A stretch of 64,000 bases of DNA, from the NCBI GenBank assembly GCA_018675975.1, contig JABGXB010000002.1:318098-382097 (forward strand), read 5' to 3'. Below, in pieces: positions 36,448 through 64,000 of this stretch. Below the pieces are notes generated by a model. That model worked only from the letters and a program-made list of their open reading frames with translations, ran no database searches and was not told where the DNA came from. Origin of the DNA: Candidatus Woesearchaeota archaeon. GTDB lineage: Archaea; Nanobdellota; Nanobdellia; Woesearchaeales; JABGXB01. Made by a program: the position numbers and the translations under genes. Numbering within the stretch: the first letter of the stretch is position 1; each line of letters opens with the position of its first letter.

Positions 36448-37887
36448 TTAAATTAAAACATCTATTTCTTTACCATATTTGGTATAAATACAATATAAAT
36501 ACATAAAGTAAAAAAAGGAAAAAATTATACCTAAATAAATAATTGAATTAATAAAAGAATATAACATTACAATTAAAAAAAGACTAAAAAATATTGTTAA
36601 AAAAACATTAAAATTAAATAAATTGTATACATCAAATTTATTTTTAATAAAATGAGAACTTAAAAAGAATATTAATAAATAACTAATAAAAGTTGATATG
36701 GCTGCACCTAAAATTCCATATGTTGGAATTAAAAAGAAATTTAATAAAACATTTACTAATGCTGAAATAATATTGACAAAAAGGATTATTTTTGTATTAT
36801 AATAAGAATATATAAATTGAAAATTAATTAAATTTAATGAATTTAATAAAACACCAAAAACTAATACAATAAAAACATATTGACCAGATAAATATTTAAT
36901 ATCAAATAAAAAACCCAAATATTTAATTCCAAAAAAAGCTACAAATATAAAAATTGGTAAAGATAATAATAAAAAGCCATTAATGATTTTTTTATAAAAA
37001 ATATTAGCTTTTAAAAAATTATTTTTTATATTTTTTCTTAAATAAGGAACAATAAATAAAATAATCGGAGAGGCTAAAAGCAACAATACTGATGCCGAAG
37101 GTAATAATACATTATATATACCAACATCAATTAATGATTTCATACTAGTTAACATAAAAGTATCAAAATAATTAATAAATCTCCCACCTAAATCACTTAA
37201 AATTAATGGAAAAGAAAAAAAAAGAAAATTGGGAATTATAGTATAATCATTAGCTCCAACATTTGTAAACTTAGAAATTAATTTTGATAAACTAGGAATA
37301 AATATTAGAAATACAAATATGGGCGTAACTACAAGAGCTAAAATTGCCGAAATCAAACTATCAAAAAAATAATTAAAAATTAAAAATAATATGACAATTA
37401 AAAGATTTTTTAATGGTTCAAAAGTATTTATTTGTTTAGACATATAAAAAATTCTAAAAATGGGTCTTAATAATAAACTCAATAAACTTGTTACAAAATA
37501 AATACTAAAAACTTTAAACAAAAATGAAGAATATAATAAATTAAAATAATTTTGAGCTAAAAAATCAGAAATAAAAATAAAAATAAATACAAAAATAGTC
37601 GAAATAATAAATTGGGATGAAATTACAAAACATAGTAAACTTCTTAATGCATTAAAATTTTTTTTAGATAGAAAATCAGAACCAAATTTAACAACACCCT
37701 GATTAAAACCCAAATTTCTAAAAACTAAAAAAAAAAGTATAAAATTTAACATAGAATAAAATAAACCATATTCTTCAAGACTAAGATTAGATGCTAAAAT
37801 AATTCTAAATAAATAAGAAAAGAATAAAGAAAATATTGCACCAATAATATAAAAAATACTTCCTTTAATAAATAAATTTTTAATCAT
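36448..37887 (-). CDS. Wzx-like oligosaccharide flippase
   Basis: 479 residues with about 12-14 transmembrane helices and a MATE/MOP (PST) layout: 'GSIFYIIGAIFSLFFSYLFRIILASNLSLEEYGLFYSMLNF' at the start. It probably flips the completed lipid-linked oligosaccharide outward for AglB. Its ATG overlaps the AglB stop by 4 bp (ATGA), so flippase and transferase are made together, a strong functional link. Confidence 0.85.
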   Translation of the reverse strand: MIKNLFIKGSIFYIIGAIFSLFFSYLFRIILASNLSLEEYGLFYSMLNFILFFLVFRNLGFNQGVVKFGSDFLSKKNFNALRSLLCFVISSQFIISTIFVFIFIFISDFLAQNYFNLLYSSFLFKVFSIYFVTSLLSLLLRPIFRIFYMSKQINTFEPLKNLLIVILFLIFNYFFDSLISAILALVVTPIFVFLIFIPSLSKLISKFTNVGANDYTIIPNFLFFSFPLILSDLGGRFINYFDTFMLTSMKSLIDVGIYNVLLPSASVLLLLASPIILFIVPYLRKNIKNNFLKANIFYKKIINGFLLLSLPIFIFVAFFGIKYLGFLFDIKYLSGQYVFIVLVFGVLLNSLNLINFQFIYSYYNTKIILFVNIISALVNVLLNFFLIPTYGILGAAISTFISYLLIFFLSSHFIKNKFDVYNLFNFNVFLTIFFSLFLIVMLYSFINSIIYLGIIFSFFYFMYLYCIYTKYGKEIDVLI

Positions 37888-40800
37888 TTTATAATAAAAT
37901 CAGAAAAAGATAAAGTTTTATTATTTAATAAAATAATATGATAACCAAATTGACTCTCAATTGGTTTACTTATTTCACCAACATTTAATTCTTTTGCCGC
38001 ATCACTAAATTCAAGAACAAATCCATTAAGATCACCAAGACCCATATTACCACCATTAACAACAACACTAGGATCCTCACTAAATTCAATTGCCTTTTCT
38101 TTAAAATTATGTATAGTTAAATTGTTTAAAACATCATTTGTAAATTTTAAGGCTTCTTCTTTTGTTCTATTAATATTTAATTGTGGAACTTCACTATGAC
38201 CAATTAAAATATGACTAACATTATATAAATAGTTTTTTGGTTTAGTCATTTCATTACTATCCCAGTCAATTAACCAACTACTTATTTTAAATCCACTTTG
38301 GCTTCTTTGTTCGTCAAAGAATTTAAAATTTTTCAAACCAAGACCATTTAAATAAAACAATCTACTAAACATAGAGCCAGCTAAATCTGGATGAGATATT
38401 GAAACTAAAAGTCTTCCATCATTTTCATATAATGTTAAAGCAAAATTAATACTTGCATTTTCATAATTTATTGATTCAAATTCATAATCAGAATTTAAAT
38501 AATTAAAAGAATGAGGTTTTTGATTATTTTGAAAACTACCTTGGTTATTTTTCAAATTATGAGTATATATTAAAGCACCCTGGGGCGTATTGACATTACA
38601 AATTATTTCATTTTCATTTTTTTGACAAGGATAGTTTCCCACATAATTTGGAAAACCACTAATCCAATAATTTGCACTTTCTTCATCATATGCATTAACA
38701 TTCATACTATCAATTAATTTGTCAGGATTTTTAATATTTTTTTCATTTAATATTTTAATTTGGTCATCATATAGTAAATCGTTAGTGCTTTTCCAAGCAT
38801 AAGCTCGATCAAAATTCCAACCACCAAAATGAGCCCAGACAGCCGCTTTTGAAACCATATCTTGTGAAGTTATAAAAATTCCATCTTGTGGAGTACAATG
38901 GGTCATTCCTAAAAATACATCAACTTCTTCAACACTATAATTTTCATTTAATAAAATTTGTTTTGCATTTTCTTTCGAAGAAAAAATAACTGTTTCAATT
39001 AATCTTAAAGTATCATAATTATCATATTTTTTTTCTAATTCCTTACCAAATCTATGATTTGAACAATGCAACATACGCAAAATATTTTTTGCCTCACTTT
39101 CATTATTAGTTAATAAACTTCGCCCAACCCAATGCGCTAATTCACCTAATTGAGAACCACCATCAAAGGTTGCACCCCTGTTTGAAACCGTAATAAATTG
39201 ATGACCAAAATCCCACCAAGAAGTTATTATCGAATCATTATGAGTTTCTGTTTTTATTTTATTTAAATCCGAAACCCACGCGTCATTTAAACTTGGTAAG
39301 GATTGTGAACCAAATGCATAAACTGTATTTAACGGAAAAATTAAATTTAATAATAAAAATACCAATACAAAAATACACAAATTTGAAGTAATCAAAGATA
39401 ACTTAAATTCCTTATTTGAAAATTCAGACAAATATTTTGAAATTTTACCAAAAAATATTGAAATTATAAATGCAAATGGTAAAACTGTAACCATAATAAA
39501 TCTAACACCTGAAAAAGTAGTCCAAAATAAAACAATAAACCAAACAAAGCCCAAAATTGAAAGTTTTATATTAAAATTTGAATTTTTTCTTTCAACAAAT
39601 AATATAATTAAACCAATAAATCCAAGAATGGTTAATAGTATACCTTTAGATAAACTACCCCCTCCAGATAAACTAGAAAAAGTATTTAAAAAATTACTTG
39701 GATTTAACTCCGCTACTGTTGTATAAACATTAGGCCAAATGCTTATCCCTTTAGTAGTTTCTTTTAATAATAAAAAACCAAATGGTCCTTTAAAAAGTGA
39801 AATTAAAGAACCCACACCTTTTATTAAAACAACAAAAATTGATCCTAAAACAAAATAAGAAAATGAATAATAAAATGTATTTTTTATTTCTACATCATAT
39901 TTAAAAAGATTAAAACTTTTTTTTAACTTATATTCTTTAATGACTAATATGATCAAATATAAAAATAATGAAATTAATAAAATTAAAAAGAAATACCAAT
40001 AACCCCCCCAAGCAAAAGAAAATAAACCAGTAAAAAATGATGCAAAAATTAAATTAGTTATTTTCCATTTTATTTTTTTTAATTGAAATACATTTATTAT
40101 AAAATAAAGTATTATTAAAGGAAAAAATATCACATACATATCAGTATCTGAAAAACCACCAACAGTTCTTTGAAATATACTTGTATGAAATCCAACTAAA
40201 TATGAAAATATAAAACCACCTAATGTATTAGTAATTTGTCTACCAATTAAAAATGCAAAAATTATTGCAATCCCTATTCCAATAATCGGTAAAATAAAAA
40301 ATGTTTTATATAATGAAATGTCGATAAAAAAATTTAATATTTTATATGAATATACAGCAAAATATGGGTGTAAAGAATTAGTTAATGGTTGTTCATTATT
40401 ATTAGGAGCCAATCTAAATTTATCAATAGATTGACCTTCAATTAATATCTCCCCAACATGCCCATTATTCAATAAATTTCTTGCTTGTCTATAATAGTAA
40501 TAAGGATCAATTGCAACTAAATATGTCTCCCCATCTTCATTTTGAAATTCTGCTTTAATTCTATCTGACAAAATTTCTGTTTGTTGATCTATTACTTGTT
40601 TATTTTGTTCAGAGAATTCAATCCATCTTTTTTGTGCTAATTGTTGTTTTCCTTGTGAATCAACATTAGGAAATTGAGAATTAATTTCATTTAATTGAGA
40701 ATTTAAAAAATTTTGTCGTATACTTTGTTCAGCCCACTCTTCTGAAATATCAACATTTAAATTTTGAGTTCTTACATCAAAATTTACAAATAATAAAGTC

Positions 40801-40928
40801 AATAATAAAAAAATCCAAATATATTTTTGAATAAATTTTGAAAATCTATATTTAGGGTTATCATTAAATGGATCTAATAAATAATTTTTCCAATTTGAAA
40901 AATCTAATTTAAATTCTTTTTCTTCCAT
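37884..40928 (-). CDS. aglB: AglB/STT3 oligosaccharyltransferase with C-terminal parvulin PPIase domain
   Basis: 1014 residues. About 13 helices span residues ~35-530. The first outer loop has 'AIDPYYYYRQARNLL' with metal-binding D141, and the second carries 'GGFSDTDMY' (DxD). The soluble domain has the N-glycosylation signature W571-W-D-F-G575 and 'FDGGSQ'. This is an archaeal oligosaccharyltransferase that moves a lipid-linked glycan to Asn-X-Ser/Thr. Unusually, residues ~904-1010 ('SHILIGHSEVPQ...EFSEDPSVVVNGGNMGLGD...GEISKPIESQFGYHIILLNNK') are a parvulin (PpiC/rotamase) prolyl isomerase domain. An AAGGGAT Shine-Dalgarno precedes the ATG. Very confident for AglB; the PPIase reading rests on clear motif matches. 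Confidence 0.93.
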   Translation of the reverse strand: MEEKEFKLDFSNWKNYLLDPFNDNPKYRFSKFIQKYIWIFLLLTLLFVNFDVRTQNLNVDISEEWAEQSIRQNFLNSQLNEINSQFPNVDSQGKQQLAQKRWIEFSEQNKQVIDQQTEILSDRIKAEFQNEDGETYLVAIDPYYYYRQARNLLNNGHVGEILIEGQSIDKFRLAPNNNEQPLTNSLHPYFAVYSYKILNFFIDISLYKTFFILPIIGIGIAIIFAFLIGRQITNTLGGFIFSYLVGFHTSIFQRTVGGFSDTDMYVIFFPLIILYFIINVFQLKKIKWKITNLIFASFFTGLFSFAWGGYWYFFLILLISLFLYLIILVIKEYKLKKSFNLFKYDVEIKNTFYYSFSYFVLGSIFVVLIKGVGSLISLFKGPFGFLLLKETTKGISIWPNVYTTVAELNPSNFLNTFSSLSGGGSLSKGILLTILGFIGLIILFVERKNSNFNIKLSILGFVWFIVLFWTTFSGVRFIMVTVLPFAFIISIFFGKISKYLSEFSNKEFKLSLITSNLCIFVLVFLLLNLIFPLNTVYAFGSQSLPSLNDAWVSDLNKIKTETHNDSIITSWWDFGHQFITVSNRGATFDGGSQLGELAHWVGRSLLTNNESEAKNILRMLHCSNHRFGKELEKKYDNYDTLRLIETVIFSSKENAKQILLNENYSVEEVDVFLGMTHCTPQDGIFITSQDMVSKAAVWAHFGGWNFDRAYAWKSTNDLLYDDQIKILNEKNIKNPDKLIDSMNVNAYDEESANYWISGFPNYVGNYPCQKNENEIICNVNTPQGALIYTHNLKNNQGSFQNNQKPHSFNYLNSDYEFESINYENASINFALTLYENDGRLLVSISHPDLAGSMFSRLFYLNGLGLKNFKFFDEQRSQSGFKISSWLIDWDSNEMTKPKNYLYNVSHILIGHSEVPQLNINRTKEEALKFTNDVLNNLTIHNFKEKAIEFSEDPSVVVNGGNMGLGDLNGFVLEFSDAAKELNVGEISKPIESQFGYHIILLNNKTLSFSDFIIK

Positions 40929-53941: not shown

Positions 53942-54943
53942 TTATAACCTAGAATAAAAACCTCTTTTTGGTTCATATATATCACCAGTTCTTTTTAATT
54001 TTTCTAATCCTTCTTCAATTTCTGAAACATCCAAACCAAGTTTCTCTGCTTTTTTTAATATATCATCAATAGGAATAACTTTTCCAACTTCATCCTCTAA
54101 TTCTTTAATAATTTTATTTAAATTCATTATTTTAGATCTTTGAGATTGACTCATTCCAACAGAACTAATTTTGTCAATATCAATTTTACCAGTTTCTTTA
54201 TCTAATGCAATTTCACTCAAACAATGATGTAAAAGGTCAATTGCAATTCTTGCATCAGAAAAATCAACAGTTTCAGATAATCTTGTTTTTGCACTAGCTT
54301 CAGCTAAACGAAGTAGACCTTCTAATTGTCTTGTTGTTATAGCAACACCCCGTACCGAACCATCTTCACTAATACCACTACTTCTCATTTCAACATAATA
54401 TTTTTTTATTTCTGCTAATGCCTCAACAGACAATTGAGGATTACAAGTTTTTCTTGAGTATGCAACAAATTTTCTTATTAATTCAGTTTCTATAGGTGGC
54501 GCATCAAAAGTATTTGTTTGATGAATTTTTAAAATAAAATCCGCAAGTAAATCATCTTTAAATCTGTCCGGAACATCTTTTATTGGAAAAATTAAATCAA
54601 ATCTTGAAATTAATGCAGGTGGTAAATCAATTTGATCATTAATTGGTGCATATGGATCAAAACGACCAAATTTTGGATTAGCTGCAGCAAGTACTGTCGT
54701 TTCACATCTTAATGTTGCTTGAATATTTGCTTTTGCAATTGTAACTGTTTGTTGTTCTAAACATTCGTGCATGGCAGATCGATCCTCAGTAGTCATTTTA
54801 TCCATTTCATCAATAAAACAAAAACCATTATTGGCAAGAACCATCGCTCCCGCTTCAAGAGACCAAGACCCAGTCATTTCATCTCTTATTACACTTGCAG
54901 TTAAACCGGCACCAGTTGTACCCTTACCAGAAACTGATTTTAT
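53942..54943 (-). CDS. mcm: MCM replicative helicase, C-terminal part after a frameshift
   Basis: Second reading frame of the mcm gene. From the residues 'KSVSGKGTTGAGLTASVIRDEMTGSW' it continues with Walker B 'NGFCFIDEMDKM', the sensor 'VLAAANPKFGRF', the arginine finger 'LISRFDLIFPI' and the C-terminal winged helix ('IPIDDILKKAEKLGLDVSEIEEGLEKL'). It joins the N-terminal frame at 54940-54945: one extra A in the AAA run would read P-K-I-K-S-V-S-G-K-G, the correct family spacing. The ATG at 54877 is an internal Met, not a start. Confidence 0.88.
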   Translation of the reverse strand: MKSVSGKGTTGAGLTASVIRDEMTGSWSLEAGAMVLANNGFCFIDEMDKMTTEDRSAMHECLEQQTVTIAKANIQATLRCETTVLAAANPKFGRFDPYAPINDQIDLPPALISRFDLIFPIKDVPDRFKDDLLADFILKIHQTNTFDAPPIETELIRKFVAYSRKTCNPQLSVEALAEIKKYYVEMRSSGISEDGSVRGVAITTRQLEGLLRLAEASAKTRLSETVDFSDARIAIDLLHHCLSEIALDKETGKIDIDKISSVGMSQSQRSKIMNLNKIIKELEDEVGKVIPIDDILKKAEKLGLDVSEIEEGLEKLKRTGDIYEPKRGFYSRL

Positions 54944-55968
54944 TTAGGTGCAACAACAGCCATTCGCCTCATAATTTGTGTTTTACCTGCACCAGGGTCC
55001 CCAATTAATAAAATATGCATATCACCCCTAGTGCTAACACCATCCGGTCTCATTTTACGAGAACCACCAAATAATTGTAAAACTAATGCTTGCTTTACTC
55101 GATCATAACCATAAATTGTAGGACAAAGTGAATTAGTAATTTTTTCAAATACATCTTTATCATTAGCTAATTCTTTTATTTTTTTTTCTTCTTCTTTAGT
55201 TATTTTAATATCATCAAAATCCTCACTTAAAGAAATATAGTTATTACCTTCTATTAATAAATCATAATTTACAGTTTTTGCACCACTTTTTCCTTCAATG
55301 GGAACTTCTTTTAAAATACCAACAACTTCTATTTTCATACCTGGATTTGTTTTTTTATCATTAAAAGGACTAACTAAATCACTAAATAAAATCATTTTTA
55401 ATTTTTTAGGTTGTGTTGATCCACCAATATCTTCATGGCCTTCTTCTAAATCAAGTATTTGTGCATCAATTAATTTTTTATCTGCTAATTTAAATTTACC
55501 TTTTCTACCACAACTAGAACACATAGACGGTTCATTAAACTTTTTTTCTAATTGTGCTAATTCAATAATATTTCCACAACTAGGACATTCAAAATTTGCT
55601 AAAACACATTTAGGTCTTATTTCACTTTTTGTTTTTACAATACCTTTAAATTTTAATAATTTTGAAATGTGTCTTGTCCTTGCATGAGAAATTTTAATTT
55701 CTACACTATCAGGTAAATTAAAAAATCTAACTTTTACTTCTTCAATTCCATCAGGCAAACCCATATTTTGAATTGCTAATTCTGCAGCTTTAATTGTAGT
55801 ATCTGGTTGTTCTAATAAATCTTCAGATGCTTTTATATTAAATTTAGCTAGTTTTTCAAAATCAACAGAAATTGTATGGTAAACTTCATTAAAAGAATCC
55901 ATTATATCCTTAGAATAATTTTTCTCAAAAAATTTACCAAATTCTAAAACTAGTTCTGCCCCTTCCAA
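54940..55968 (-). CDS. mcm: MCM replicative helicase, N-terminal part, ends at a frameshift
   Basis: First 342 residues of MCM: N-terminal domain, zinc site ('NFECPSCGNI', 'SMCSSCGRKG'), beta-hairpin OB region and Walker A G323-D-P-G-A-G-K329-T. The frame stops with TAA at 54940-54942 directly after 'VAPK', where other MCMs continue. The combined length of the two parts (~675 residues) is normal for archaeal MCM, so the gene is one unit with a single-base deletion or a sequencing error. Start is TTG 55968 ('MEGAEL'); no ATG lies between it and the upstream stop. A TATA box at 55991-56000 is about 28 nt away, which supports a leaderless TTG start. Confidence 0.88.
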   Translation of the reverse strand: MEGAELVLEFGKFFEKNYSKDIMDSFNEVYHTISVDFEKLAKFNIKASEDLLEQPDTTIKAAELAIQNMGLPDGIEEVKVRFFNLPDSVEIKISHARTRHISKLLKFKGIVKTKSEIRPKCVLANFECPSCGNIIELAQLEKKFNEPSMCSSCGRKGKFKLADKKLIDAQILDLEEGHEDIGGSTQPKKLKMILFSDLVSPFNDKKTNPGMKIEVVGILKEVPIEGKSGAKTVNYDLLIEGNNYISLSEDFDDIKITKEEEKKIKELANDKDVFEKITNSLCPTIYGYDRVKQALVLQLFGGSRKMRPDGVSTRGDMHILLIGDPGAGKTQIMRRMAVVAPK

Positions 55969-56833: not shown

Positions 56834-57574
56834 ATGGACATATTATTTTTAATTCAAATCATCACATATGTAATATTTGGTACTCTAATCACATATAATG
56901 ATATAAAATATGCTAAAATTTACAATAAACATATTATTCTATTATTTTTTTTATCTATAGCAATGAATTTTGGTGAATTGTTTACAGTTGATTTTTATTT
57001 AATCAACATTATTTCCTTTATTGTATTTTATTTATTATATAAATTAAAATTAATAGGCGCAGGAGATTCAAAATTATTAATTGTTAGTATATTATATTTT
57101 TCAAATTTAATTGTTGAATTAAATCAAATAATTGAATTTTTAAAATATCCAATAATTTTATTTGTTATTTGGAATTTCATTTTATTTTTAAAAAAATTTA
57201 AAAATTTTGAAGTAGATATACAAGAATTTTTATTTAAATGTTTATTATATATCTTAGGATCCATAATATATTTAAAATATTTTAATTTAGGATGGGAACA
57301 TTTTTTAATCTATATTCTTATAATTGGAATATTTTATTCACAGATTAAAAAATATTTAATTAAAAAATTTGAATATAGTCAAATATATTTCCTTTTAAGT
57401 TTAATTAGTATAATTTTATTTTTTATATTATCTATTGGATTTATAGAATTATTATATAGAATTAGTTTTATTTTATTAATTCTGTTATCTGAACAAATTA
57501 TTTTACACAATAGTGAAAATATTAAATTTGGCCCATATATTATTTTAGGTGTTTTAATTTATGCAATCTCATAA
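56834..57574 (+). CDS. Type IV prepilin-like (A24) leader peptidase
   Basis: 246 residues and about seven to eight transmembrane helices. The two aspartates of aspartyl A24 peptidases are present: D23 in 'TYNDIKYAKIYN' and D78 in 'LIGAGDSKLL' (the GxGD motif). These enzymes (FlaK, EppA, PibD) cut class III signal peptides from archaellins and pilins at the cytoplasmic face. It is the first gene of a five-gene overlapping operon ending in a radical SAM maturase, so it may process the same secreted protein that the maturase modifies. Its end overlaps the next gene by 14 bp. Confidence 0.85.
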   Translation: MDILFLIQIITYVIFGTLITYNDIKYAKIYNKHIILLFFLSIAMNFGELFTVDFYLINIISFIVFYLLYKLKLIGAGDSKLLIVSILYFSNLIVELNQIIEFLKYPIILFVIWNFILFLKKFKNFEVDIQEFLFKCLLYILGSIIYLKYFNLGWEHFLIYILIIGIFYSQIKKYLIKKFEYSQIYFLLSLISIILFFILSIGFIELLYRISFILLILLSEQIILHNSENIKFGPYIILGVLIYAIS

Positions 57575-58313
57575 AATTAGAGCTGATTTGAAAGAGAAAT
57601 TTAAAATAAAAAATTTATTTCTTTTAAAAAAAGGAAATGATTATTTTATATTTAGAAGTGGATTTGAAATATATTCAGTTTACTTTAATATTGAAGATTT
57701 TAATAGCGTTAAAGAACGCCTTGAAAAATTAGATAAAAATTTTGAAGAATATGATTTAAAATTAATTATAATATCAATTGAAAAAGAAGGTCTTTTAAAT
57801 TATATTAAAAAAAAATTAATAAGTGATTATTTTATTATAAAATTTGTTAAATTAATTAAAAAAATACATAATAAATATAATACTAAACTTGAAAATTTTA
57901 ATTATATTACACAAATCAGATATGATTGTAAATTAGATGATGAGAATTTTGTAAATGAAAATTTAGATAAAATACAAAATTTACTTTTAAATATTAAAAC
58001 TGTAAATGCGATTATTGAAATAAATAATAAAAAAATTCAATTGTTTAATATTAAATATAAAAAAGAAAAAATTCACAAAAATTATAAAACATATCTCAAT
58101 GATAAATTTGGTATTGAAAGTGAACTTGATAATCCTAATTTATATTTATCTATTTTAAATTTAAATAATGTAGTTTTTGGAAATGAATGCCACATAATTG
58201 ACTATAATAACTTAGGTTTAATGTCTAAAGAAGATGGATTTAAAATATTAAAAAAATTATTAGGAAAAAAATATAAATTATTCGAAAAAGAATATAACAA
58301 AAATGAAAAGTAA
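57561..58313 (+). CDS. Protein of unknown function, 250 aa, in the Hxs operon
   Basis: No recognisable family. The protein is soluble, Lys/Asn/Ile-rich, mixed alpha/beta; an N-terminal ~55-residue segment ('KNLFLLKKGNDYFIFRSGFEIYSVYFNIEDF') looks like a small beta domain that could bind a peptide or protein partner. The start overlaps the prepilin peptidase stop by 14 bp and the end overlaps hxsD by 11 bp, so its product is made with both. HxsC, the second radical SAM enzyme of canonical Hxs loci, is not what this is: no CxxxCxxC is present. Confidence 0.55.
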   Translation: MQSHKIRADLKEKFKIKNLFLLKKGNDYFIFRSGFEIYSVYFNIEDFNSVKERLEKLDKNFEEYDLKLIIISIEKEGLLNYIKKKLISDYFIIKFVKLIKKIHNKYNTKLENFNYITQIRYDCKLDDENFVNENLDKIQNLLLNIKTVNAIIEINNKKIQLFNIKYKKEKIHKNYKTYLNDKFGIESELDNPNLYLSILNLNNVVFGNECHIIDYNNLGLMSKEDGFKILKKLLGKKYKLFEKEYNKNEK

Positions 58314-58623
58314 TATAGATTATTATCAAATAAAAGAGAATAGGATTTTTCTAAAAATTAATACATCAGTTTATAGTTTTGAAGTAATAATTTCAACTTT
58401 ATATCCATATTTAGAAGATAATTATATAATTTTAGATGGAGATAGAAATTCAACAGTAAATGTTGAAATTAAACCAAAAAGAAAAATAGATTTAGATGAA
58501 TTTGCTAATGAAATATTTAATAGATTATTTCTATATAATATACATGAAATGAGTCAAAATAAAAATCGGGACATTATTGATAATATAATGAAAAATACAT
58601 TAAATAAATTTAATAAAAAATGA
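58303..58623 (+). CDS. hxsD: HxsD-like protein
   Basis: 106 residues. 'IFLKINTSVYSFEVIISTLYPYLEDNYIILDGDRNSTVNVEIKPKRKIDLDEFANEIFNRLFLYNIHE' follows the HxsD pattern: a hydrophobic 'Y-x-x-E-V-I-x-x-x-YP' helix, a 'V-x-V-x-I-x-P' strand and an 'E-F-x-x-E-x-x-N-x-L-L' helix. HxsD proteins accompany HxsB/HxsC radical SAM enzymes and are thought to help recognise the substrate. Overlaps the 250-aa gene and the next gene (ATGA). Similarity is from memory of the family, not a search. Confidence 0.7.
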   Translation: MKSNIDYYQIKENRIFLKINTSVYSFEVIISTLYPYLEDNYIILDGDRNSTVNVEIKPKRKIDLDEFANEIFNRLFLYNIHEMSQNKNRDIIDNIMKNTLNKFNKK

Positions 58624-58841
58624 AATTAAATAAAAAAATTTACAAAAAATCAAATATTATTGAAAGTAATTTAAAGTTTAAAGATCAATTTAGTATTATT
58701 GAAAAAGATCAACATTTTGAAATAGAATTTAAAGATAATATGGTTCACGAAAACATAAAAAAAAGAATGCTATACGAATTTGCAAATTATATTTTTGAAA
58801 TTCAAATAGAAAAAGGTGATTTTGATAGAAACAGTTGTTGA
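58620..58841 (+). CDS. Second small HxsD-like protein, 73 aa
   Basis: Shorter than HxsD but with the same end: 'HFEIEFKDNMVHENIKKRMLYEFANYIFEIQI' compares to 'NVEIKPK...DEFANEIFNRLF' in the preceding gene. It is probably a diverged paralogue that lost the N-terminal helix, though unrelated origin is possible. It starts at the ATGA overlap with hxsD and its last 26 bases overlap the radical SAM gene, which is translated from another frame. Confidence 0.55.
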   Translation: MKLNKKIYKKSNIIESNLKFKDQFSIIEKDQHFEIEFKDNMVHENIKKRMLYEFANYIFEIQIEKGDFDRNSC

Positions 58842-60234
58842 TTTTCCATTAAAAGATTTTGTATTTAATAGATTTAGATTTAAAAAATATTTAGGAAATT
58901 ATTTAGTAATTGGAAATGATGGTGGAAGTATTTTTTTAACAGAAAATGAGTTTAAGGACATGTTAGAAAAAAGAATTATCCATGGAAGTGAATTATATAA
59001 TAAATTAATTAATTCTAGAATTATAATTGATGGAAGTAACTTGGGTCAATTAGAAAAAGGAATAATTAACAGATATCATTTCATTAAAGGATATCCCACA
59101 TTAAATATTGTTGTAATTTCAAATAGGTGCACACATAAATGTGTTTATTGTCATGCTGCAAGTGCACAAGCAGCTAAAGAAGAATTTGATTTAAGTTTAG
59201 AAAATGCAAAAAAAACCTGTGACACAATATTAAGTAATCCAAGTAAAAACATTTTAATTGAATTTCAAGGTGGAGAGCCATTAATTAATTTTGAAGCAAT
59301 TCAATTTATTGTTGAATATGCAAGAAAAAATGCTAATGGAAAAAAAATTAATTTTGCATTAGTAACTAATTTAGAATTAATGGATGATTTGAAATTTGAA
59401 TATTTAATTAAAAATAATATAAGTATATGTACTAGTTTAGATGGAAATGAGGAAGTTCATAATTTTAATCGTAAAAGTGAAAATAAAGAATTTAATAGTT
59501 TTTTAAATATTGTTAAATGGATTGAAAAAATAAAAAAAGTCCAAAAACCTGCGGCATTGGTTACAGTTACAAAAAAAGGTATTGAAAATTATAAAGAAAT
59601 TATTGATACATATATAAAACTGGGTTTTGAGAGTATTTTTTTAAGACCATTACATTTTTTAGGGACTGCAAAAAGTACAATCAGTTCAATTGGGTATACT
59701 GGCTCAGAATTTATTGAATTTTATAAAAAATCATTAAATTATATTATTGAAAAAAATAAACAAGGAATTAAATTAGTTGAAATGAATGCATTATATAAAA
59801 TGCATAAAATAACTGATAGACCAGACCCGTGTTTAAGTGAATTAATGAGCCCATCTGGAAGTTGTATTGGTCAAATTGCATATAATCATGATGGTCGCGT
59901 ATTTAGTTGTGATGATGGCCGTAATGAAAGTAGTAGCGATGGATTTTTTCAAATTGGTGTAGCTGGCGAAGATATTAATACAATATTATCTAGAGATAAG
60001 GTAAAATTAATAGTTGAATCATCAATAAATGACAAATATGATTGTGATTTGTGCGTATATAAACCATTTTGTGGATTTAGCACACCACAAAATTATGGAA
60101 AATTAAATACAATTGTACCAATTAATATTGAAGATAGTCGATGTAAAATTGCAATGGGTGAATTTGATTTCCTATTTGAAAAAATGAAAAATAATAAAGA
60201 AGATTGGAATGTATTATATTCTTGGATTAATTAA
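58816..60234 (+). CDS. hxsB: HxsB-like radical SAM/SPASM maturase
   Basis: 472 residues. Radical SAM cluster C105-x3-C109-x2-C112 ('SNRCTHKCVYCHAAS'), then the HxsB-typical 'ILIEFQGGEPLINFE' (147-160). The C-terminal SPASM domain, which holds auxiliary Fe-S clusters, has C350, C365, C410-x2-C413-x5-C419 and C443. The N-terminal ~90 residues ('FPLKDFVFNRFRFKKYLGNYLVIGNDGGSIFLT') match the HxsB precursor-binding region. Hxs maturases modify a His-Xaa-Ser-containing secreted protein. GTG 58816 is used as start within GGTGAT; TTG 58822 is an alternative. Last gene of the operon, convergent with a candidate substrate. Confidence 0.85.
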   Translation: MILIETVVDFPLKDFVFNRFRFKKYLGNYLVIGNDGGSIFLTENEFKDMLEKRIIHGSELYNKLINSRIIIDGSNLGQLEKGIINRYHFIKGYPTLNIVVISNRCTHKCVYCHAASAQAAKEEFDLSLENAKKTCDTILSNPSKNILIEFQGGEPLINFEAIQFIVEYARKNANGKKINFALVTNLELMDDLKFEYLIKNNISICTSLDGNEEVHNFNRKSENKEFNSFLNIVKWIEKIKKVQKPAALVTVTKKGIENYKEIIDTYIKLGFESIFLRPLHFLGTAKSTISSIGYTGSEFIEFYKKSLNYIIEKNKQGIKLVEMNALYKMHKITDRPDPCLSELMSPSGSCIGQIAYNHDGRVFSCDDGRNESSSDGFFQIGVAGEDINTILSRDKVKLIVESSINDKYDCDLCVYKPFCGFSTPQNYGKLNTIVPINIEDSRCKIAMGEFDFLFEKMKNNKEDWNVLYSWIN

Positions 60235-60728
60235 CCAAAAAATCCACCAGACTCTTCATTAGAGTGGTTAACATAAGACCATGTTTTTTTAACTACTTGA
60301 AGACAATTATGATGTTTTAAAATAGCATCATCAAAAATATTATCTATTGCTAAATTATTTGAATGAAAAAAATAATTTTTTGAATCAATGTATTTTGGAT
60401 TATCAATTACACTTTGTTGAGAACCATGATGATCTGTATATTGTGCAGGTTTATTTAATTCATAAGGATTGGTACTAAACTCCCCATTTGTTGATAAATC
60501 TAAAATGCCACCTTCAACAATTTCCATACCATAACATTTCCCAAATAATAATTCATGATTAAGGGTAGGTATGTCTTTTGATTGAGCTGCAGAAACAGAA
60601 TCCATTAATAATACCAATAATGCAATATTAACTACATTTTTAGATTTTACATTACCATCTTGATTTGAAATAAAATTATTGTTTTTTAAAAAAGATGATA
60701 TTTTTTTTTTTATTTTTGGTATAAACAT
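60231..60728 (-). CDS. Small secreted protein ending in GGFFG, candidate Hxs substrate
   Basis: 165 residues. A basic N-terminus ('MFIPKIKKKISSFLKNNNF') precedes a hydrophobic segment ('VVNIALLVLLMDSVSAA', about 33-49) with a signal-peptide-like end. The exported part is His/Ser/Asn-rich near the C-terminus: 'YTDHHGSQQS' contains one H-x-S, with 'FFHSNN' and 'VNHSNEES' further on, and the last five residues are GGFFG. It is convergent with the radical SAM gene (4 bp overlap). The ATG at 60728 is used; TTG 60734 is the only longer start. The link to Hxs is inference from position and composition; only one true His-Xaa-Ser triplet is present. Confidence 0.55.
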   Translation of the reverse strand: MFIPKIKKKISSFLKNNNFISNQDGNVKSKNVVNIALLVLLMDSVSAAQSKDIPTLNHELLFGKCYGMEIVEGGILDLSTNGEFSTNPYELNKPAQYTDHHGSQQSVIDNPKYIDSKNYFFHSNNLAIDNIFDDAILKHHNCLQVVKKTWSYVNHSNEESGGFFG

Positions 60729-60843
60729 AATCAAAAAAGAATTAATACAAATATAAATCTTACTGTGAATAAATTTAAAAATAAAAAGTTAATAATGTTT
60801 ATAAAATAAGAAACATTTAATTGAATATAAAAAGGGGTAATAA

Positions 60844-63800
60844 ATGAATAAAAAAATAGTTTATTTAATAATATTTATACTAATATTTAATTATCCCTCA
60901 ATTTTTGCAAAACCAATTCAAAGTTCATCTTATGAACCATTAAGAACAATTGATTTTAGAACAAGAGATTTTTCATTAACAAATCCAGAAAAAAGTGGAA
61001 TATTTGGAATTATTTTAGTTGGAGAAAATGGACAGTATTTTGAATTTGAAAAAAAATATTCTACAAATATGGATGAAAATACAGATGAAGATTCATATCT
61101 AAAAAATTTAAATACTAAAGCATTACCAAAAATAATTAGAGATAAAACAGAAAGAGAAATTGCAGAAGCAAATAATGCTGTGAAATTAAATGAATATTAT
61201 CCATATTTTAATGATAAATTTTATTTTTACACAAAGCCATATTATTTTTATAATGATGTTGATGGGAAAAATGAAGTAATTGAATTAGAAAATGGTGGTG
61301 CAAATTATTTTTCAAAATCTCAAATCTCACAAGGCATAAATGTGTTTAATTCTGAATATGGTAGGATAACTTATGATTATTTTAACTCAATAAAGCCCGA
61401 TTTTTCAAGCAGAGCTCCTAAATTTCAAAGTATTTCTGGATTACTTGACAATTCTAATATTGAAAATTTTGAATTTGATAAAAGATATAATCCAAATAAT
61501 ATTAAATTATTAAAAGATACACCAAAAGTATATGTAGCAAACACAAATATTTTTTGTGAAAATAAAAACTTCAATATTGATTTTTATGATGAAAAATTTT
61601 GTACAAATAAAAAACAAAACGGTGGATGCCAACCAAATGATGAAACTTGGGTATATCAAGATAATTTTTGTTGTGGTAATTCGAAAATAAATGTTAATGG
61701 TTTAACATATATAGCAGATGCGGGATTACCAAGAATATCAGGTGGAATTATTATGGACCCTGTATGTATTTATGAAGAAGTTGCAGGAAAAAAGGCATTT
61801 GGATTTAAAAGAATGACATATAATGAAATATTTCAGTTTAAGGGTGGAAATTTTGAACATTCAGTAATTCAATCAAATGATTTTAATAGGAATATAAAAT
61901 TTAATTTTTGTAAAACTAAGAAAGCATATGAATTAGATCAAAAATTAGAACCAACAGGTGAAAATTGGAATAAATATGAAACTAATGAACAAATTAATCA
62001 AAATACAAATATAGTAATTATAAATAAACAATATGATGAAGAAAAAGAAGAAATAATATGTAAAGATAATTCTTATACCACTGCAAGATATTTAAGATGT
62101 TTAGATGAATTTGATAATGATTTAAATTTAAAACCACATGCAGGTGGCGATGAAAATAATTTAAAACAAGGAGAATCAATATATAAAGAAACTTGGAATC
62201 TTGATGATAGTGACTATATAGATGTTAAAGATAATACCGCAATTAGTTTAAAAGAAAATAATTTTATAGATTCAAAAAATATTACATTAAGTTTTGATTT
62301 TATAGGTGATGAAATTGGAGCACCACAATTAGAAATAGAAGCTTACTCATATGAATTTGAAAATCAGAATATTGATCCAATAATAATTCAAATAAAACCA
62401 GAAAAATATTACCCGAATAAAAAAACAAAAATAAATCAATTTATTGAAATAGAAAATTTCACAAAATTTCACATAGAATGTACATCTCCAGAAGCAAAAG
62501 AATTATGTAAAATAAAAAATATAAGAGTTTACACGGATAAAGAATTTAATAAAATTAAAAATATTTGTTCAAATAATAGATCTTTCATTTCAATTAATAA
62601 CTTGAAAAATTTAGACCAAGATGAATCACTAAGTACAAGTCAAACAATATGTGAAAAAAGTTCAGACCACAATAAATATATAATTAATGGATCTAATGAA
62701 CTTGGTACATATCGAACTTGTTGTATACCAGATAAAAATGATTACTTCTTAGGAAAAAATGGTGCATGTATTAGTGGAAATTATATTGATAATGAAAATT
62801 ATAATAATATAAATAATGATAATGTATTTACTTCAACTGGATTTTTATTAGTATATAAAGAAATAGATGGAAGTGAAAAAACAAAATTCATTTCAAACAT
62901 TTATGCAAATTCAAATTATAAAATAGAAAAAACTCCATTAAATAATATAACAAGAGTACATATAGAAAATTTAGATGAACTTTATTATAATATAAGTAAA
63001 AATGAAAATAATGAAATAATTGAATTAAAAAATTATTATCCTAATATAATTTATTCAGATAAAGTTTATACATGTGGAATAGATAACTCTCATTTTAATA
63101 GTGCTTTTAAAAGTATATATGATGAGAAATTAAAAACAAATATAAATAAATTATCATTATTTCCAGAATTAACAGAGGATGGTTCTAAATTAGACTATCC
63201 AGATAATAACTATTGTAAAAATATTGGTGAATTTTTTTGTAATATTGATGGAACATTTAAAATCGCAGATACTAGTTTATTACAATTTCATAATTTTACA
63301 AATGATAAATCTTACATATATCCAGATAATATTTCTGAATTAGTTACAACACCAACTGAAATATCAGGATTAACTAAAGATAGTGAAATTAATTTAGAAA
63401 CTGATAAACAAAATTTAGCTTGTTGTCCAGGAAATAGTTGTTATGATGGAAATGAATGTATTGAAAATCAAGCACAATTCCCTTCAGTAGATTTTGAATA
63501 TTCTAATTATATAAATTTAGAAAAAGGACAAAAATACAAAAGAGAAACAAATAAAAATGGAATGCCATATAAATTTGATTCAATTGAAAAGCCAAAAATA
63601 TGTGCAGGTAAATTTTTAGAAAAAAAATATGAAGTTGACGAAGTTGCAGATGGTTGGATAGATTATGAAGAAATTGTGGATTGGACAGGAAATTATAAAG
63701 GAAGTTGTATGCCAAAGCAATGTTTAACGCCAATATTCTTATTAGATAAACAAAGTAAGGACTATATTAAAGAATCAAGTGAAAATCAATTAATTAATTT

Positions 63801-64000
63801 TAGATCAACATTACAAGATAAACAATTTGTTTGTGTAGATCATGGATTTTTTACAAAAGATCATATTTGTTCATATAAAAATGAAACAGAAACAAAAGGT
63901 GTATGGAGTACTAGAACAAGTGTAATTATTAAAGAATTAGCTAAAAAAGTAAATAAAACTATTGAAGAAAGTCCAGATAAATATAATTATATGATTCATT
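60844..64000 (+). CDS. Giant Cys-rich secreted protein, N-terminal 1052 residues (runs off window)
   Basis: Open from the ATG at 60844 to the right edge with no stop. A signal peptide ('IVYLIIFILIFNYPSIFA') is followed by Asn/Lys/Glu/Tyr-rich sequence with many cysteines, including doublets such as 'DNFCCGNSK', 'RTCCIPD' and 'LACCPGNSCYDGNECIENQ', the style of DPANN extracellular domains stabilised by disulphides. A GGGG Shine-Dalgarno-like sequence at 60834-60837 and a TATA box at 60798-60806 ('TTTATAAAA') support expression. No enzyme domain seen. It lies directly after the Hxs locus and divergent from the candidate GGFFG substrate; it may be an adhesin or a second substrate. Confidence 0.7.
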   Translation, partial: MNKKIVYLIIFILIFNYPSIFAKPIQSSSYEPLRTIDFRTRDFSLTNPEKSGIFGIILVGENGQYFEFEKKYSTNMDENTDEDSYLKNLNTKALPKIIRDKTEREIAEANNAVKLNEYYPYFNDKFYFYTKPYYFYNDVDGKNEVIELENGGANYFSKSQISQGINVFNSEYGRITYDYFNSIKPDFSSRAPKFQSISGLLDNSNIENFEFDKRYNPNNIKLLKDTPKVYVANTNIFCENKNFNIDFYDEKFCTNKKQNGGCQPNDETWVYQDNFCCGNSKINVNGLTYIADAGLPRISGGIIMDPVCIYEEVAGKKAFGFKRMTYNEIFQFKGGNFEHSVIQSNDFNRNIKFNFCKTKKAYELDQKLEPTGENWNKYETNEQINQNTNIVIINKQYDEEKEEIICKDNSYTTARYLRCLDEFDNDLNLKPHAGGDENNLKQGESIYKETWNLDDSDYIDVKDNTAISLKENNFIDSKNITLSFDFIGDEIGAPQLEIEAYSYEFENQNIDPIIIQIKPEKYYPNKKTKINQFIEIENFTKFHIECTSPEAKELCKIKNIRVYTDKEFNKIKNICSNNRSFISINNLKNLDQDESLSTSQTICEKSSDHNKYIINGSNELGTYRTCCIPDKNDYFLGKNGACISGNYIDNENYNNINNDNVFTSTGFLLVYKEIDGSEKTKFISNIYANSNYKIEKTPLNNITRVHIENLDELYYNISKNENNEIIELKNYYPNIIYSDKVYTCGIDNSHFNSAFKSIYDEKLKTNINKLSLFPELTEDGSKLDYPDNNYCKNIGEFFCNIDGTFKIADTSLLQFHNFTNDKSYIYPDNISELVTTPTEISGLTKDSEINLETDKQNLACCPGNSCYDGNECIENQAQFPSVDFEYSNYINLEKGQKYKRETNKNGMPYKFDSIEKPKICAGKFLEKKYEVDEVADGWIDYEEIVDWTGNYKGSCMPKQCLTPIFLLDKQSKDYIKESSENQLINFRSTLQDKQFVCVDHGFFTKDHICSYKNETETKGVWSTRTSVIIKELAKKVNKTIEESPDKYNYMIH

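Follow-up and report, generated by a model that had tools for sequence, protein, structure and literature searches.

Conserved association of a prepilin-type peptidase with an HxsC-less His-Xaa-Ser maturation locus in a Woesearchaeota archaeon

Why should a gene for a prepilin-type peptidase lie at the head of a locus for a radical S-adenosylmethionine (SAM) enzyme, and what would the peptidase cut? The question is raised by a 64,000-nucleotide stretch of the small genome of a Candidatus Woesearchaeota archaeon (contig JABGXB010000002.1, positions 318,098 to 382,097; hereafter, the window), in which five plus-strand open reading frames (ORFs) follow one another from 56834 to 60234 with overlaps of 14, 11, 4 and 26 bp. 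As an initial annotation of the window had described them, they encode an A24 peptidase, a 250-aa protein, two HxsD-like proteins and an HxsB-like radical SAM/SPASM enzyme. Hxs radical enzyme systems are thought to modify histidine-rich secreted proteins chemically. The reading that we favor, with moderate confidence and on sequence grounds, is that the locus encodes a variant of His-Xaa-Ser maturation that lacks HxsC: HxsB and HxsD would modify an HxsA protein encoded next door, and a dedicated A24 peptidase would cut the HxsA leader after a conserved Gly.

The maturase gene (58816..60234, +) starts with GTG and encodes a protein with a CTHKCVYC motif that scores 389.7 bits against the TIGR03978 hidden Markov model (HMM), above the curated cut-off of 370. 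By this measure the protein is certainly a true HxsB, as proposed in the initial annotation, and its gene is present in a single copy in the genome. In a tree of HxsB proteins, the sequences from archaea, candidate phyla and a Spirochaete split with full support from three proteobacterial HxsB. The HxsB of the window is long-branched and is placed, with modest support (88/75), at the base of the archaeal group. The length of this branch marks the window as a divergent member of the group, in line with its short peptidase, its orphan gene and its repeat-poor HxsA. The earlier statement that HxsC is missing holds: no HxsC (TIGR03977) is found at the locus, and the best score in the genome is 49.9 of the 267.9 bits needed. 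Some of the archaeal loci have another radical SAM gene after hxsB (L043 10325-11281, L045 8114-9025 and L059 230-1219, among others). Its nearest NCBIfam model is HxsC4 (NF038332), with scores far below the cut-off, and such HxsC4-like genes might stand in for HxsC in those loci.

An obvious HxsA repeat protein had also been reported as missing, yet a counterpart is present. A profile built from 18 HxsA of relatives, with the protein of the window left out, was used to search 2897 ORFs. It picked the minus-strand ORF 60231..60728, convergent with hxsB and within the span that had been assigned to the locus, at an E-value of 6.6e-7; the further matches outside the seed were HxsA-like ORFs in hxs loci. 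When the profile included the window protein, this ORF was its sole match in its own genome at E<=10. The 165-aa product has the leader and core of the family but few repeats: a single HxS, and HxNxL twice. Against NCBIfam HxsA3 (NF038309) it reaches only E 0.03, a model matched at E<=0.01 by 24 of the 26 HxsA of the set. Its N-terminus (MFIPKIKKKISSFL, then QDGNVKSK, a hydrophobic segment and SVSAA) resembles that of a Buchananbacteria HxsA (L003). Placement of hxsA opposite to hxsB is not odd, as the same arrangement is seen in L044, L045, L056, L057 and L067. The two HxNxL copies are HSNNL (residues 122-126; 60351..60365, -) and HHNCL (residues 139-143; 60300..60314, -). Motif counts find HxNx[LMV] in 16/26 HxsA, against a mean of 1.1 and a maximum of 5 in 500 shuffles, and above all in HxsA poor in HxS, that of the window included; we infer that HxNxL is a candidate modification site. 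The substrate of the system is probably this HxsA relative rather than some pilin.

If HxsA is the substrate, its leader should be informative. Leaders were searched by regular expression, with one false positive (L073) that was dropped before profile building. The consensus PK[IL]KKK[IL]..FL..E[ED]G/K[IV][ST]K, the slash marking the proposed cut, is shared by archaea, Gracilibacteria (genetic code 25), Buchananbacteria and a Spirochaete. In the HxsA alignment the residue at the proposed cleavage position is Gly in 25/26 proteins and Ala in 1/26. In the window, the alignment and the table of leaders place it at Gly25, in MFIPKIKKKISSFL..SNQDG/NVKSK (60654..60728, -). A Sec-like hydrophobic segment follows, with its hydrophobic maximum starting at +8 to +14 and an Ala-rich, AxA-like end, and the leader Gly is better conserved than the Ala-rich site past the hydrophobic core.

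Archaeal prepilin processing sites likewise precede the hydrophobic domain, and most listed pilins have Gly or Ala at the cut (PMC4371748). HxsA, too, has Gly or Ala ahead of its hydrophobic segment, as in class III signals. One might then propose that the targets of the A24 enzyme are pilin-like and that HxsA is itself a pilin, or another filament subunit, that carries a modification, which comes close to the idea of pilin-like or signal-anchored substrates put forward in the initial annotation. A large class III-type protein (KGQVSIF) encoded from window-equivalent position 65628 would suit this proposal, as would the membership of the peptidase in the A24 family. The hallmarks of pilins, however, namely the EppA-type +1 Gln, a constant +5 Glu and an uncharged helix start, are not found in HxsA leaders, where +1 is mostly Lys, +5 is variable and Lys stands at +4 and often at +9. 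In addition, class III proteins of this sort are encoded at a distance of several kb, and only in some loci, while a second A24 gene of the genome could serve pilins. We therefore regard the pilin reading as improbable. HxsA has a leader of prepilin geometry and is not filed as a pilin; the coupling of modification to a peptidase proposed earlier is conserved, and it is the nature of the substrate that has to be revised.

The peptidase gene (56834..57574, +) encodes a protein of 246 aa for which we propose the name HxsP, an Hxs-associated A24 prepilin-type aspartic peptidase. It passes the cut-off of Peptidase_A24 (PF01478; 30.3 bits against 26.5). The two catalytic residues noted at first sight, D23 and D78 (in GAGD78), fall in Asp columns conserved in 28/29 and 29/29 sequences when the protein is aligned with 29 relatives. 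HxsP is a short form that lacks the Arc_PepC C-terminal region, and most relatives are longer at the C-terminus. Because the other A24 gene of the genome lies elsewhere, on another contig, the Hxs peptidase can be dedicated. No NCBIfam model matches the two Hxs-type peptidases tested. A peptidase whose alignment lacks the first catalytic Asp, with Q instead, occurs once among those of the Hxs type, in L051 (7610-8656 and 10452-11048); there the EEGKISK motif is missing from the HxsA-like neighbor as well, in what is a single case assessed by eye.

How general the association is was examined in 371 genomes from the phylum. Thirty-seven matched TIGR03978 and 35 were kept as hxsB loci; G318 and G314 were rejected, with 207 and 188 bits against the cut-off of 370 and with no HxsD, HxsA or A24 gene nearby. 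Of the 35 loci, 27 have an A24 gene no more than 5 kb from hxsB. It usually stands immediately before hxsD, and the commonest order is A24-hxsD-hxsD'-hxsB-hxsA. One could imagine that the peptidase gene of the window, with its short product and an orphan gene between it and hxsD, is an accidental or hitchhiking neighbor in the operon with no functional link. Adjacency in 27/35 loci over many families contradicts this, as chance (a genome of ~1.3 Mb with 1-2 A24 genes) predicts far less than 1 in 35, and so do the co-occurrence counts below; we consider an accident hardly credible.

A search of the 371 genomes with the peptidase alignment gave 41 strong matches (at least 77 bits), separated by a gap from general A24 proteins (at most 53 bits). 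Hxs-type A24 peptidases are present in 33/35 hxsB genomes against 8/336 others (Fisher test, 3e-37, with the relatedness of genomes ignored). Each of the 31 genomes in which an HxsA leader occurs also has such a peptidase, including five that have no hxsB. Among hxsB-negative genomes, several of which belong to one family, the peptidase is found in 5/5 leader carriers against 3/331 of the rest (1.6e-9, by the same test). For G213, where HxsA is encoded at the end of a contig, the missing hxsB may be an assembly gap. Away from hxsB, HxsA and A24 genes stand together in G013 (L090), a second HxsA adjoins an A24 gene in G369 (L038), and HxsD and A24 genes stand together in G025 (L092). The 31/31 count and these pairings argue that the presence of the peptidase goes with that of the leader, not with that of HxsB. 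Altogether, conservation of this kind strongly supports coupling of the Hxs radical SAM system to an A24 peptidase.

A different view of the leader has to be weighed against these counts. HxsA might be an ordinary Sec protein cut by signal peptidase I only, in which case the extension would be a recognition leader for HxsB and HxsD, and the A24 enzyme would mature another protein of the system. AxA-like ends do follow the hydrophobic core in most HxsA. Moreover, HxsA-type proteins of proteobacteria (Klebsiella, Methylobacter, Sphingobium) lack the extension and have a plain Sec signal from the start, and no A24 gene is annotated within 6 kb. It would be difficult to explain, however, why the peptidase tracks the leader even in genomes without hxsB, why leader protein and peptidase are physically paired away from it, and why conservation is higher at the Gly than at the Ala-rich site. 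We judge this alternative unlikely, yet it is the strongest of the three set out here.

The leader also occurs in other contexts. In hxsB-negative relatives it is found with a Gly/Cys-rich region and a Hint-like domain just below the cut-off (L085 7835-8518, -), fused to an HxsD-like domain and several Hint-like domains (L086 7393-9342, -; PF07591, 71.6 bits), and with an HxsD-like domain and a Gly-rich tail (L088 8061-8642, -). All three genomes carry an Hxs-type A24 gene. A tentative speculation, which we hold as possible but short of probable, is that leader and Hxs-type A24 peptidase constitute a separate module for export processing in these archaea and candidate phyla, that Hxs modification is one of its uses, and that HxsD acts as a leader-side chaperone freed by the A24 cut.

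Under the reading that we favor, an HxsA precursor that consists of a basic N-terminal leader with Gly as its last residue, a Sec-type hydrophobic segment and a His-rich secreted part (HxNxL, HxS) would receive a radical modification of its His-rich part in the cytosol from HxsB, aided by HxsD and HxsD'. At or after membrane insertion by Sec, the A24 peptidase would free the leader by a cut behind the conserved Gly, on the cytoplasmic face of the membrane. The Ala-rich end of the hydrophobic segment may be the site of a second cut that releases the product; alternatively, the segment may be retained as an anchor. Several points weigh against this scheme. Acidic residues precede the leader Gly and Lys follows it, which sets the leader apart from most classical prepilins. 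As AxA-like Sec sites follow the hydrophobic core, HxsA could be processed by signal peptidase I with no need for A24. In the window, the HxsA is divergent, the peptidase short and the HxsB long-branched. Two hxsB genomes (G068 and G090) show no Hxs-type peptidase. Finally, the peptidase profile was seeded from genes near hxsB, which, with the disregard of relatedness in the co-occurrence test, tempers the counts.

The two HxsD-type proteins match models of the families first proposed, with scores below the respective cut-offs. HxsD (58303..58623, +) reaches 36.8 bits across nearly the full TIGR03976 model (cut-off 50; a relative, L046, reaches 49.9), and the short HxsD-like protein HxsD' (58620..58841, +) reaches 33.4 bits against NF038315 (HxsD_rel; cut-off 41). 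HxsD aligns with 22 relatives whose genes adjoin hxsB. Its AlphaFold2 model (beta-beta-alpha-beta-beta-long helix) has a predicted local distance difference test (pLDDT) score of 82, and the closest solved structures are subunits of the Rpb11/RpoL type, a weak likeness (E 0.02, template modeling score about 0.5). A heterodimer of HxsD and HxsD' would fit such a fold; this is only a lead. The possibility that HxsD is a recognition element of the PqqD-like winged-helix kind (RRE) was discarded, as no such match appeared among the first 50 structure matches. HxsD is probably an accessory or substrate-handling protein.

The 250-aa orphan (57561..58313, +), between the peptidase gene and hxsD, has no family above cut-off in NCBIfam or Pfam and only two weak matches (E > 0.002) in 59 relatives, hence no credible homologue there. 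For this reason the five-gene order, as first described, is not conserved, while peptidase-hxsD-hxsD'-hxsB-hxsA is; the 250-aa gene falls outside the conserved set. Profile comparison with the peptidase was negative, which led us to discard the idea of a detached peptidase C-terminal domain. An AlphaFold2 model from the single sequence is poor (pLDDT 46).

Genes near the locus, encoding a TATA-binding protein, MCM, an IF2B/IF5-domain factor and STT3, indicate an archaeal setting, and no pilus assembly genes were seen in the immediate neighborhood. The number of small relatives hints at a DPANN lineage. The MCM helicase gene is divided into two minus-strand ORFs (54940-55968 and 53942-54877; gap 54878-54939) by an apparent -1 frameshift close to a AAATAAAA stretch, probably a sequencing error or possibly recoding. 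The ORF 37884-40928 (-) encodes an STT3/AglB-type oligosaccharyltransferase with a fused C-terminal PPIC-type rotamase domain; we know of no earlier example of this fusion. After the locus come two very large surface-type genes, from 60844 to 64000 and past the window end. The first encodes a secreted protein of 1595 aa with no Pfam match in the part tested, and the second is the class III-type gene mentioned above (MKKGQVSIFIILG), weak relatives of which are found near some other hxs loci.

In the literature searched, we found neither experimental papers that address what His-Xaa-Ser systems make or do nor, with both terms combined with archaea, a link between radical SAM maturation and a prepilin-type peptidase. 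If correct, ours would be the first such link, as far as we could find. Because this variant comes with a definite substrate, a residue at which the cut is proposed and a protease of its own, the pathway is directly testable.

The search of named genomes for close relatives returned bacterial loci only, which are useful as outgroups, and the viral contigs searched yielded nothing. The proteobacterial HxsA-HxsB-HxsC-HxsD system (TIGR03976-03979; Klebsiella plasmid NZ_CP069856) shares with the archaeal locus HxsB, an HxsD homologue and a small, secreted, His-rich protein encoded nearby. The archaeal locus differs in lacking HxsC and in having an extra HxsD-like protein, a leader extension on HxsA and a dedicated A24 peptidase. 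Among the NCBIfam variants HxsA3 (NF038309), HxsA4 (NF038313), HxsD_rel (NF038315) and HxsC4 (NF038332), HxsD_rel matches the short HxsD, and an HxsC4-like gene accompanies some relatives. By analogy, the scheme recalls pathways for ribosomally synthesized and post-translationally modified peptides (SCIFF, ranthipeptides), with a leader, a modified C-terminal part, a radical SAM/SPASM maturase and a leader protease; here, however, the proposed protease is a membrane A24 enzyme and HxsD has no RRE-like match. With FlaK/PibD and EppA (PMC4371748), HxsP shares the A24 family, two catalytic Asp and a predicted cut ahead of a hydrophobic domain, while the substrate proposed for it, a His-rich HxsA, has a longer leader with acidic residues before the Gly and Lys behind it. 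EppA shows that such archaeal enzymes can be substrate-specific, and EppA and its pilins provide a precedent for a dedicated enzyme-substrate pair (PMC4371748).

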